This document shows, piece after piece, positions 5,519 through 59,501 of a stretch of DNA of 64,000 nucleotides. The notes under the pieces are model-generated. The model did not search any database, was not told the origin of the DNA, and saw nothing but the letters and a program-made list of their open reading frames with translations. The position numbers were made by a program, and so were the translations under genes. This DNA comes from Cognatundibacterium squillarum. Lineage in GTDB: Bacteria; Pseudomonadota; Gammaproteobacteria; Burkholderiales; Burkholderiaceae_D. The stretch is taken from the NCBI RefSeq assembly GCF_014652435.1, contig NZ_BMYU01000001.1, positions 248,001-312,000 of the forward strand, written 5' to 3'. The stretch's first letter is position 1; each line of letters opens with the position of its first letter.

Positions 5519-5608
5519 GGCCTAAATGCGGACTCCTGCACAGGCATCCGGCGCTCGTCGGCAGAAAGTCCGGACCTCCAGAAACACCGGATGACGATTC
5601 CTGCACAG
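5519..5608 (+). repeat. Dispersed 90-base intergenic element, copy A
   Basis: One of four copies in the window. It has the flank GGCC, a left unit beginning ATGCGGACTCCTGCACAG at 5526, the core GTCGGCAGAAAGTCCGG (5557-5573), and a right unit beginning ATGACGATTCCTGCACAG at 5591, exactly 65 bases after the left unit. It lies between two convergent genes and is flanked by terminators. The alignment with the other copies has no gaps. I do not recognise a named repeat family. Confidence 0.85.
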
Positions 5609-24432: not shown

Positions 24433-24465
24433 GTCGCTGATTGTGCACTTTCCCGCATCAGCGAC
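24433..24465 (+). terminator. Intrinsic terminator after the Sel1 gene
   Basis: GTCGCTGA (24433-24440) pairs with TCAGCGAC (24458-24465), followed by TTTTC. The remainder of 24375-24600 shows no gene. Confidence 0.65.
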
Positions 24466-24600
24466 TTTTCAGACCACCCCGGAGCGCCAGCATTCATGCC
24501 GGCATCCGGGAAAACAGGCTGTTTTTCTGTGCTGAAATGCGCAAACAGGGGCGCTGGCGGCAAAATGGCCGGCCTCTGTTGCAGTCATAAAAACAAACGC

Positions 24601-25263: not shown

Positions 25264-25353
25264 GGCCTGAATGCGGTGTTCTGCATAGCGATCCGGCGGT
25301 CGTCGGCAGAAAGTCCGAGCCTCAGAAAATGGTCGATGACGATCCTTGCACAG
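25264..25353 (+). repeat. Dispersed 90-base intergenic element, copy B
   Basis: It has the flank GGCC at 25264, a left unit beginning ATGCGGTGTTCTGCATAG at 25271, core GTCGGCAGAAAGTCCG (25302-25317), and a right unit beginning ATGACGATCCTTGCACAG at 25336, again 65 bases from the left unit. It lies between the promoter side of a minus-strand gene and the tRNA-Ser terminator. Confidence 0.85.
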
Positions 25354-25522: not shown

Positions 25523-25613
25523 TGGCGGAAGGTGTGAGATTCGAACTCACGGAGAGCTTTCGCCCTCGTCGGTTTTCAAGACCGGTGCATTAAACCAGCT
25601 CTGCCAACCTTCC
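25523..25613 (-). tRNA. tRNA-Ser (anticodon TGA)
   Basis: The minus strand gives a 91-base class II tRNA. The acceptor stem is GGAAGGT/ACCTTCC, the anticodon loop CTTGAAA contains TGA, the variable arm is long (CGAGGGCGAAAGCTCTCC region), the T-arm is GTGAG TTCGAAT CTCAC, and CCA is encoded. Confidence 0.96.
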
Positions 25614-39855: not shown

Positions 39856-39945
39856 TTGTGCAAATATCGTCATCCATCAATTTCTGAGAGCCGGACTTTC
39901 TGCCGACGACCGCCAGATTGCTGTGCTGAACTCCGCATTCTGGCC
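39856..39945 (-). repeat. Dispersed 90-base intergenic element, copy C (inverted)
   Basis: On the minus strand it starts with GGCC at 39945. The left unit ATGCGGAGTTCAGCACAG begins at 39938, the core lies at 39892-39907, and the right unit ATGACGATATTTGCACAA begins at 39873, again 65 bases apart. It lies between mobA and the cyclophilin gene, both on plus, so here the element opposes the neighbouring genes. The rest of 39830-40127 shows no gene. Confidence 0.85.
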
Positions 39946-52807: not shown

Positions 52808-53860
52808 TTATCTTAGCCTGTTCTTGAGGTTTCTTAATTGCTGCCCGAACACCGAAGACTTCATTTGCTCACGTGCCAGCCAGAATTTTCGTAAGAAGAA
52901 CCCCTTCCAGGCAGGTACCGTAATCACTCCCTCACTCAGCGCTATACTGCCGGTCGCAAATCTTTGCTTGTAAGCCTGCTCACCACGTCCGAGATCAACC
53001 ATCGTTAAGCCGTGTTCAGCTGCCGCTTCGGCGCAGCGTGCCAGCAAAATCAATCCGGGTGAATATTCTGCGTAGCGGGTCTCATACCATGGAAACCAGT
53101 AATGCAGCGTTTTACCGGAACGTATGCCAAAGTGTGCAGCAATCAGCACGTCGCCCGCGTAAAGCCCAGACAATACACCGGCAAACAAAGGGGCCTGTGC
53201 AGAATGCAGCATTTCAACGGATTCACGTATCCATGTCGTCCGGAAAATGTCAGCTTGTTCACCAAGAGTGCGTACAAACTGGTCTGATTTGCCTGCCAGC
53301 AATGCATTCAGATCACGTTGTTCTGCACTGTGCCAGACGAAATTTACCGGACCAACTTTGTTTCCGAGCTTTCTGACATTGGTATCAATTTTCTTAAACA
53401 GGCTGGCTTCCCTGCCCGTCTGCAGCTTTTGCTGGTAAGCCCCGTAGCCTCCGCTCAGATCCATCGTCAGACTGCGCGATCCTTTCCATACGTAATCTTG
53501 AAATTCTGTAAACGTCGCCGGTACGTGGTTGAAATCCAGCCGATGTATGCCTGTCTGCCGGAAAGCACCGGCGCAATCAGGCAGTTCTGTTTGCTCTCTG
53601 ATCCAGCCCTGATAATCCGTCAGCCCCTCCCCAATCACCGTGGTACGTTGTGGCGTATGATGCAAGGGCAGGATTCCGCATAGACGGTTATTTTGCTCAG
53701 CGAGCAAAAGATATACGTCGTCGCGAGTCCGCGCTATTGCCTGCGTGTATGCCGGATGAAAATACGGACTGTGATACAAAGGTTCGGTTGCCAACATAGC
53801 CAGCCACCGGCTGACCACAGACTCATCAAGCTCTTTACTGTGGATGCGGGTATATTTCAT
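52808..53860 (-). CDS. FemAB / GNAT-like acetyltransferase (CelD/BcsL type)
   Basis: A 350-residue soluble protein with the two-GNAT FemAB-like layout. A first region (CGILPLHHTPQRTTVIGEGLTDYQGW) is followed by a second domain with KIDTNVRKLGNKVGPVNFVW, the long LFAGVLSGLYAGDVLIAAHFGIRSG strand pair, and YSPGLILLARCAEAAAEHGLTMVDLGRG. This matches the CelD/BcsL-type acetyltransferase group that often sits by cellulose or eps genes. It may modify the exopolysaccharide, but the convergent position next to epsB only suggests this. Its start overlaps the YihY gene by 26 bases; ATG 53860 has AGGA upstream. Confidence 0.78.
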   Translation of the reverse strand: MKYTRIHSKELDESVVSRWLAMLATEPLYHSPYFHPAYTQAIARTRDDVYLLLAEQNNRLCGILPLHHTPQRTTVIGEGLTDYQGWIREQTELPDCAGAFRQTGIHRLDFNHVPATFTEFQDYVWKGSRSLTMDLSGGYGAYQQKLQTGREASLFKKIDTNVRKLGNKVGPVNFVWHSAEQRDLNALLAGKSDQFVRTLGEQADIFRTTWIRESVEMLHSAQAPLFAGVLSGLYAGDVLIAAHFGIRSGKTLHYWFPWYETRYAEYSPGLILLARCAEAAAEHGLTMVDLGRGEQAYKQRFATGSIALSEGVITVPAWKGFFLRKFWLAREQMKSSVFGQQLRNLKNRLR

Positions 53861-59326: not shown

Positions 59327-59357
59327 TGAGCCTGACCCGACTATGAAGTCAGGCTCA
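59327..59357 (+). terminator. Hairpin after the OYE gene
   Basis: TGAGCCTGAC (59327-59336) pairs perfectly with GTCAGGCTCA (59348-59357), starting 12 bases after the stop. There is no T-run, so termination efficiency is uncertain. Confidence 0.6.
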
Positions 59358-59411
59358 GAACCGCCCTCAGTGTTGGAAACAGTCTGAAACTGTCTGAAAT
59401 CACCCAAAAAT

Positions 59412-59501
59412 GCCTGAAATGCGCAGTTCTGCATAGCGATCTGGCGGTCGTCGGCAGAAAGTCCGGCTCTCCGAAAATCGCAAATGCGGATTTTTGCACA
59501 A
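59412..59501 (+). repeat. Dispersed 90-base intergenic element, copy D
   Basis: The left unit ATGCGCAGTTCTGCATAG begins at 59419, the core GTCGGCAGAAAGTCCGG lies at 59450-59466, and the right unit ATGCGGATTTTTGCACAA begins at 59484, 65 bases after the left unit. Here the right unit is nearly identical to a left unit, which makes the internal direct repeat clear. It lies between convergent genes. Confidence 0.85.

Follow-up and report, generated by a model that had tools for sequence, protein, structure and literature searches.

A family of non-palindromic intergenic DNA elements, which comes in two lengths and is concentrated between convergent genes, is present in an estimated several hundred copies in the genome of Cognatundibacterium squillarum, and in our judgement these elements are probably functional DNA-wrapping sites. 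Each has a near-invariant core between two near-palindromic boxes and is flanked by helically phased A/T tracts. DNA gyrase is a candidate for the wrapping protein, which we put forward tentatively. Of the three natures that a preliminary description of four copies had offered (a small mobile element, a structured RNA or a protein-binding site), the last is the best supported, as a long wrapped site and not as a simple operator.

Copies in the window and in the genome

The window (the whole 64-kb stretch of DNA that was analyzed) is C1:248001-312000 of an assembly of 4,185,104 bases in 20 contigs. The four 90-bp copies of the preliminary description are exactly where it placed them, align with zero gaps and have the core GTCGGCAGAAAGTCCG in common; no further occurrence of the exact core was found in the window. 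Copy 1 (5519-5608, plus strand, 77.8 bits) has box1 at 5527-5540, the core at 5554-5573 and box2 at 5592-5605. The same three parts are at 25272-25285, 25299-25318 and 25337-25350 in copy 2 (25264-25353, plus, 79.8 bits), which lies ~170 bp past the 3' end of a tRNA gene on the minus strand (25526-25613), at 39937-39924, 39910-39891 and 39872-39859 in copy 3 (39856-39945, minus, 86.1 bits), and at 59420-59433, 59447-59466 and 59485-59498 in copy 4 (59412-59501, plus, 84.9 bits). A fifth member, of the long form described below, had been overlooked: it occupies 24439-24548 on the minus strand, its boxes are 86 instead of 65 bp apart, and it scores 68.6 bits (E 2.5e-20) with a model that was built from 18 sequences of which it is one. 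There are A/T tracts in its added turns, and each of its boxes is off-pattern at two positions. A weak match at 53133-53216 (17.2 bits, E 0.00022) lies within a predicted gene and was taken for chance.

The suggestion that four copies in 64 kb imply a genome-wide family proved correct. The 16-mer core with ≤2 mismatches occurs 292 times (158 + 134) in this genome and its reversed pattern 17 times (9 + 8), and the 20-mer 267 times (147 + 120) against 0 for the reversed sequence. A first weight matrix applied to C1:1-452000 found 41 copies scoring ≥59, which align gap-free over 125 columns; a further copy, which carries an indel, scored 15 bits. The retrained matrix, applied to C1:1-852000 and C2:1-400000 (1.252 Mb of the 4.19 Mb genome), found 112 ungapped copies, the lowest at 44.7 bits, with none between 8 and 44.7 and a maximum of -56 in the reversed-sequence control. 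This density of one copy per ~11 kb extrapolates from the 112 to ~370 genome-wide. The 16-base core with ≤1 mismatch is found 96 times inside copies and twice outside them, so fragments seem rare.

Conserved boxes and core of the short form

The consensus of the short form is nCCCnAAATGCGGAnTTCnGCACAGCAATCCGGCGGTCGTCGGCAGAAAGTCCGGnnnTCCGGAAAnnnnnnATGACGATnTCTGCACAA. Its box1 (positions 9-22) is TGCGGwnTTCwGCA and its box2 (positions 74-87) is TGMSGATWTCTGCA; both are near-palindromes. They are 65 bp apart, and the AAA at 47-49 coincides with the point midway between them (48.0). Conservation is uneven, with 43 of the 90 columns ≥90% conserved and the least conserved ones near random (columns 68, 69 and 71 have expected pair identities near 0.3). 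Over the 47 variable columns the mean pair identity is 0.525, compared with 0.529 for independent draws, so that most copies look old; the pair identities scatter more widely (standard deviation 0.10) than those of independent draws (0.07), and a few pairs are much closer.

No catalogued repeat family had been recognized in the preliminary description, and that assessment stands: Rfam at gathering thresholds returned only two tRNAs in the window, and a search of plasmid and phage records with one copy as the query gave no match. Could the conserved part be a transcribed structured RNA, a terminator or a small-RNA family? An intergenic position downstream of genes and a conserved core would suit such an RNA, but the RNAalifold consensus of 41 copies consists of two stems of 3 and 4 pairs in which 0 of the 7 predicted pairs are compensatory, the four window copies fold no better than shuffled sequences (z-scores of -1.64 to 0.26), and orientation relative to the neighboring genes is mixed. 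We consider an RNA very improbable.

A long form that differs by one helical turn on each side

The boxes are also found apart from the short form. Outside the 112 short copies, all 8 exact box1 sites and 20 of the 21 with one mismatch are intergenic (the reversed control gave 0), and the palindromic box with one mismatch occurs there 82 times against 10 for its reverse (strand counts), 38 of the 82 being intergenic. When box1-box2 pairs with ≤3 mismatches per box were sought at spacings of 30-160 bp, the known elements yielded 111 with a spacing of 65 bp and two with 42 bp (single ones left out); outside them the spacing was 85-87 bp in 18 pairs, and 63, 65, 93 and 101 bp were each seen once. 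These 18 long forms have the consensus core GTCGGCGnAAACAGTGG, with ~10 bp more than the short form to the left of the core and ~11 to its right, mostly A or T tracts. The distance from box to dyad is 32.5 bp in the short form and ~43 bp in the long form, a step of one helical turn, and the outer arms of the 18 long forms have a phase relative to the boxes similar to that of the short form. By gap type, 10 are convergent, 7 tandem and 1 divergent. At least 40 long forms are present in the genome, counted as matches spanning ≥100 bases among the 89 listed.

A two-fold symmetric wrapped complex would allow a one-turn change on both sides of its dyad, which fits the two lengths. Such a protein complex would wrap ~150-190 bp on the element, with the center (the AAA within GTCGGCAGAAA) on the dyad and a near-palindromic box three or four helical turns from the dyad on each side; phased A/T tracts beyond the boxes would make it easier to bend the DNA round the protein. 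If this is right, the two lengths amount to a ready natural experiment on helical phase and symmetry.

A dedicated nucleoid-associated or regulatory protein other than gyrase, binding as dimers to boxes and core and wrapping or looping the DNA to organize the chromosome at gene ends, would account for several of these features. The near-invariant boxes and core imply sequence-specific reading, the box-to-dyad step of one helical turn would suit it, and it would explain why separate box1 sites are nearly all intergenic, why 18 pairs share the long-form spacing and why the palindromic box outnumbers its reverse outside short forms. We nonetheless regard it as rather unlikely.

Helically phased arms

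The preliminary description called the flanking bases unrelated. They are indeed mostly non-homologous, but a phased alternation of A/T and G/C is common to them. Averaged over the 112 copies, G/C content has minima near -32, -22, -13 and -3 in the left flank and near 91, 102, 113 and 124 in the right flank; in the left arm of copy 4, for example (59352-59411, plus strand), A/T tracts are centered near -3, -13 and -22 with G/C between them. The phasing was tested, with p values from random shifts, on 87 copies, a set from which 25 others had been excluded because their flanks were similar. The left flank (-60 to -1) has a period of 10.2 (power 0.538, null maximum 0.065, p<0.001) and the right flank (92 to 150) a period of 11.2 (power 0.102, null maximum 0.037, p<0.001). 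Outer stretches are also significant (-60 to -20, period 10.1; 112 to 170, period 11.2), as is -100 to -40 (period 9.0, p 0.001); from 150 to 230 on the right phasing is not significant (p 0.17). The flanks mirror each other about 50.25, close to the box midpoint of 48, and a second solution near 45 exists because the signal is periodic.

Position -3 is A or T in 99% of the 112 copies; 64 of the 112 read AAA from -4 to -2 and 29 read TTT, an interchange which suggests that bendability rather than sequence is kept. Since unconstrained columns within the element are about random, the arms should by now have become nearly random as well unless something maintained them, and we infer that the sites are under selection.

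Are the elements instead a non-autonomous, MITE-like family that was copied in trans into phased, bendable DNA downstream of genes, so that the arms record a target preference? The hundreds of dispersed copies in one species would be expected of such a family, as would the alternation of AAA and TTT in the arms, pair identities that scatter beyond those of independent draws, and close pairs with unrelated flanks (C1 244028 and 247546 are 92% identical, C2 3910 and C1 21633 are 96% identical). Other marks of such a family were not seen: the consensus, judged by eye, has no terminal inverted repeats beyond the near-palindromic boxes, and among 1,862 combinations of length and offset no clear target-site duplication appeared, the largest excess being ~5 of 112 copies with identical flanking k-mers. 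Fragments seem rare (above), and most copies look old, yet position -3 of the arms is still almost always A or T and the arms look maintained. We think a mobile origin of this kind rather unlikely as the explanation, and prefer a maintained wrapping site.

Position relative to genes

Genes were predicted with our own dicodon gene finder (928 genes), a crude tool that misses some genes, AT-rich ones above all. By this measure gaps of ≥60 bp hold 104 of the 112 copies; the other 8 overlap a predicted gene by >15 bp, of which 4 are copies scoring <90 bits and 3 others overlap genes that score <20. None of the four short-form copies in the window is among the 8, in agreement with the intergenic placement first reported. 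Relative to the bases available, convergent gaps are over-occupied (55 copies, 29.4 expected, p 1e-7), and tandem gaps (43, 54.2 expected) and divergent gaps (6, 20.4 expected, p 6e-5) are under-occupied. For gaps of ≥150 bp, 52 of 81 convergent, 40 of 170 tandem and 6 of 90 divergent ones are occupied, and 0 of 39 convergent gaps of 60-149 bp, a comparison in which the larger classes are favored because the element itself lengthens its gap. Orientation in convergent gaps is mixed (31 plus, 24 minus), and a bias relative to replication direction is not significant (42 vs 58, p 0.13). A link to highly expressed neighbors, judged by codon bias, is weak: p is 0.0016 when all genes are compared and 0.009 and 0.019 for two subsets, but rises to 0.14 in the strictest set (convergent genes, GC ≥0.5). 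If the elements are wrapping sites, about two-thirds of the convergent junctions of ≥150 bp in the part of the genome examined (52 of 81) are marked with a ready-made one. Their placement could, on the other hand, merely reflect tolerance of insertion.

The scarcity of elements in divergent gaps speaks against the dedicated protein raised above being a classical promoter regulator. Its gene might be expected next to the elements as an autoregulated one, and no candidate was evident among the 10 proteins scanned, which flank 5 of the 6 divergent gaps with a copy; 6 of these fall in families with no obvious part in DNA binding, and 4 have no family match.

Distribution in other genomes

The 20-mer is present in 2 of 60 genomes (this one, 35 congeners and 24 of the same order), namely this genome and, with a single match, a genome of another family, and among 392 genomes of the family a 48-mer with ≤3 mismatches is found in this one only. 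A profile search of 43 Undibacterium genomes (this one and 42 others, under stricter filters) found full-length copies in only three others, G001 (U. curvum), G011 and G062, and marginal partial matches in two further congeners. A laxer search of ten congeners (E up to 1) gave 3, 2 and 3 full copies in G001, G011 and G062, respectively, and every other match was ≤20.8 bits. Weaker long-form-like matches are present in the same three genomes (2 each, of 41 congeners searched), several of them partial or with a 5-base deletion. The two-box pattern matches at least one genome record, that of U. curvum CY22W, among the matches listed, and 0 viral contigs. The over-represented k-mers of G001 C11:1-400000 include no element family of this kind; the commonest 12-mers there assemble to a REP-like palindrome, GGGCGCATCGCGATGCGCC.

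Each of the three congeners has two copies 1.7-2 kb apart. The pair in G001 lies between a GH44 glycosidase gene and another gene, which we take to encode a class III aminotransferase, and G011 has the same neighbors. In G001 two elements (L083 9577-11664) enclose a pretoxin-HINT gene; in G011 the open reading frames between the paired copies have no Pfam match. In most congener copies the core has diverged more than the outer boxes, although box2 is altered in the left-hand copies and box1 in the G062 C31 copy. The orthologous sites of one copy, 59412, were inspected: congener matches there are 63-80% identical, and, as read from the alignment ends, the gene pair is closer together in G029 and G012 and not in G022 and G004. 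No published description of the repeat was found in titles and abstract openings, from a literature that included few subscription journals, on intergenic repeats of Undibacterium or Oxalobacteraceae and on gyrase-linked or bent-DNA repeats.

This restriction to a few species suits a lineage-specific protein, and it counts against gyrase, which is universal, that full copies were found in only 3 of 42 congeners. If our reading is right, a non-palindromic, REP-like family fills one species while nearly all congeners searched yielded no full copy.

DNA gyrase as the candidate wrapping protein

The complex that wraps the element would most likely be DNA gyrase, perhaps with a second protein, bound to the boxes, that sets its position, and sites between convergent genes would hold it where transcription drives positive supercoils together. 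As a whole, the proposal that the element is a gyrase docking site at which DNA is wrapped, perhaps with a box-binding partner, and convergent supercoils are relieved falls somewhat short of an even chance in our estimate. The published gyrase motif spans 130 bp, with a center from -16 to 19 (~36 bp) and arms in which G/C is phased at 10.75 bp, and gyrase sites are over-represented behind strongly transcribed operons and in E. coli BIME-2 repeats (PMC6379681; see also PMC12393610); positive supercoiling is enriched between convergent genes (PMC8360656). The elements resemble this motif and preference in outline, and likewise have a center with helically phased arms on both sides (periods 10.2 and 11.2, p<0.001).

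When phage Mu DNA was scored with the profile, its strong gyrase site did not stand out clearly. Near the cut site, the outer flanks alone rank 312 of 39,650 (top 0.8%), as the best of several offsets and two strands; the full profile ranks 1201 of 39,730, the arms with the center masked 2676 of 39,730, and the single arms 1305 of 39,850 (left) and 2239 of 39,882 (right).

Several observations count against gyrase. The phasing reaches past the published ±66, the two arm periods differ, the outlying left stretch from -100 to -40 has yet another period (9.0), and the flank mirror center is 50.25 or ~45 and not exactly 48. A synthetic consensus site slowed gyrase in vitro (PMC6379681), which is a poor fit with fast relief of supercoils. 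The loose preference of gyrase alone also leaves the invariant core and the boxes unexplained. To our knowledge a near-invariant core of 20 bp and palindromic boxes are not requirements of gyrase. A broader statement, that the element belongs to a new class of chromosome-topology elements and is a lineage-restricted, sequence-specific wrapping station of two lengths at most of the larger convergent junctions examined, served either by gyrase with a box partner or by a wrapping protein of an entirely new kind, we hold to be doubtful when taken with all its parts. If the elements are wrapping sites, a long-standing question would become testable, namely whether dedicated chromosomal sites for gyrase (or a similar enzyme) relieve transcription-driven supercoiling.

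Paired copies and neighboring repeats

A mobile cassette flanked by two copies was considered and rejected; some pairs flank accessory genes, but others flank ordinary ones, such as YcaO and a methyltransferase. At one copy per ~11 kb, enclosure of genes by pairs may be a matter of density alone. Pairs in this genome also enclose a T6SS-immunity-like gene and an HD-CE/HATPase gene; in the latter case two very similar copies with unrelated flanks (G000 C1:244028-247635) enclose an AT-rich open reading frame of 1008 aa with HD-CE and HATPase domains, possibly a defense gene. Between another pair (G000 C1:218355-219546, locus 218355-219635) is a short remnant, a stretch like the end of the U. curvum HINT protein (47% over 38 residues).

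The genome also has a GTAG-type REP, GTARGGCGYATTGCAATRCGCC, which is rare; it and its near variants occur at C1 110957-110978 (+), 144793-144814 (+) and 144988-145009 (-), with further copies on the minus strand of C1 from 201478, 202327 and 202867. Three clear copies adjoin elements (in 1.25 Mb), and at C1 144873 an element lies between two inverted REPs in a BIME-like arrangement. Among the k-mers of G000 C1:1-400000, TAATC-type units repeated in a short tandem array also stand out (TAATCTAATCTA, 9 counts).

Identity of the element itself as a REP/RAYT system was rejected, and the earlier judgement that it matches no REP is upheld. The 20-40 bp hairpin palindrome is absent, the near-palindromic 14-bp boxes being two sub-sites and not the repeat itself, and the consensus has no GTAG head. 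The one Y1_Tnp (RAYT-like) gene in the genome (C11:113908-114231) has no element in its surrounding 3-kb locus (~1.5 kb on either side).

Comparison with known systems

Correia elements, ERIC, RIME and other small interspersed repeats are likewise intergenic families of ~100 bp that are found in some taxa only; Correia, ERIC and RIME are palindromic or have terminal inverted repeats, and we know of no repeat of this type with two lengths that differ by one helical turn per side and with phased flanks. The REP and BIME families also have many intergenic copies, and the GTAG- and CGTC-tagged REPs have a similar placement bias, mostly in convergent or same-direction gaps, possibly for other reasons (PMC3733652); gyrase cleavage is over-represented in E. 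coli BIME-2 (PMC6379681). Unlike them, the element has no hairpin palindrome and no GTAG head, and it is a gap-free 90 bp with phased arms and two lengths. Strong gyrase sites (those of phage Mu, pSC101 and pBR322) and the E. coli Topo-Seq motif resemble it in having a central segment and phased, bendable arms over ~130 bp or more, but these are single sites or a degenerate motif, whereas several hundred copies of the element are related to one another and share an invariant core and palindromic boxes.
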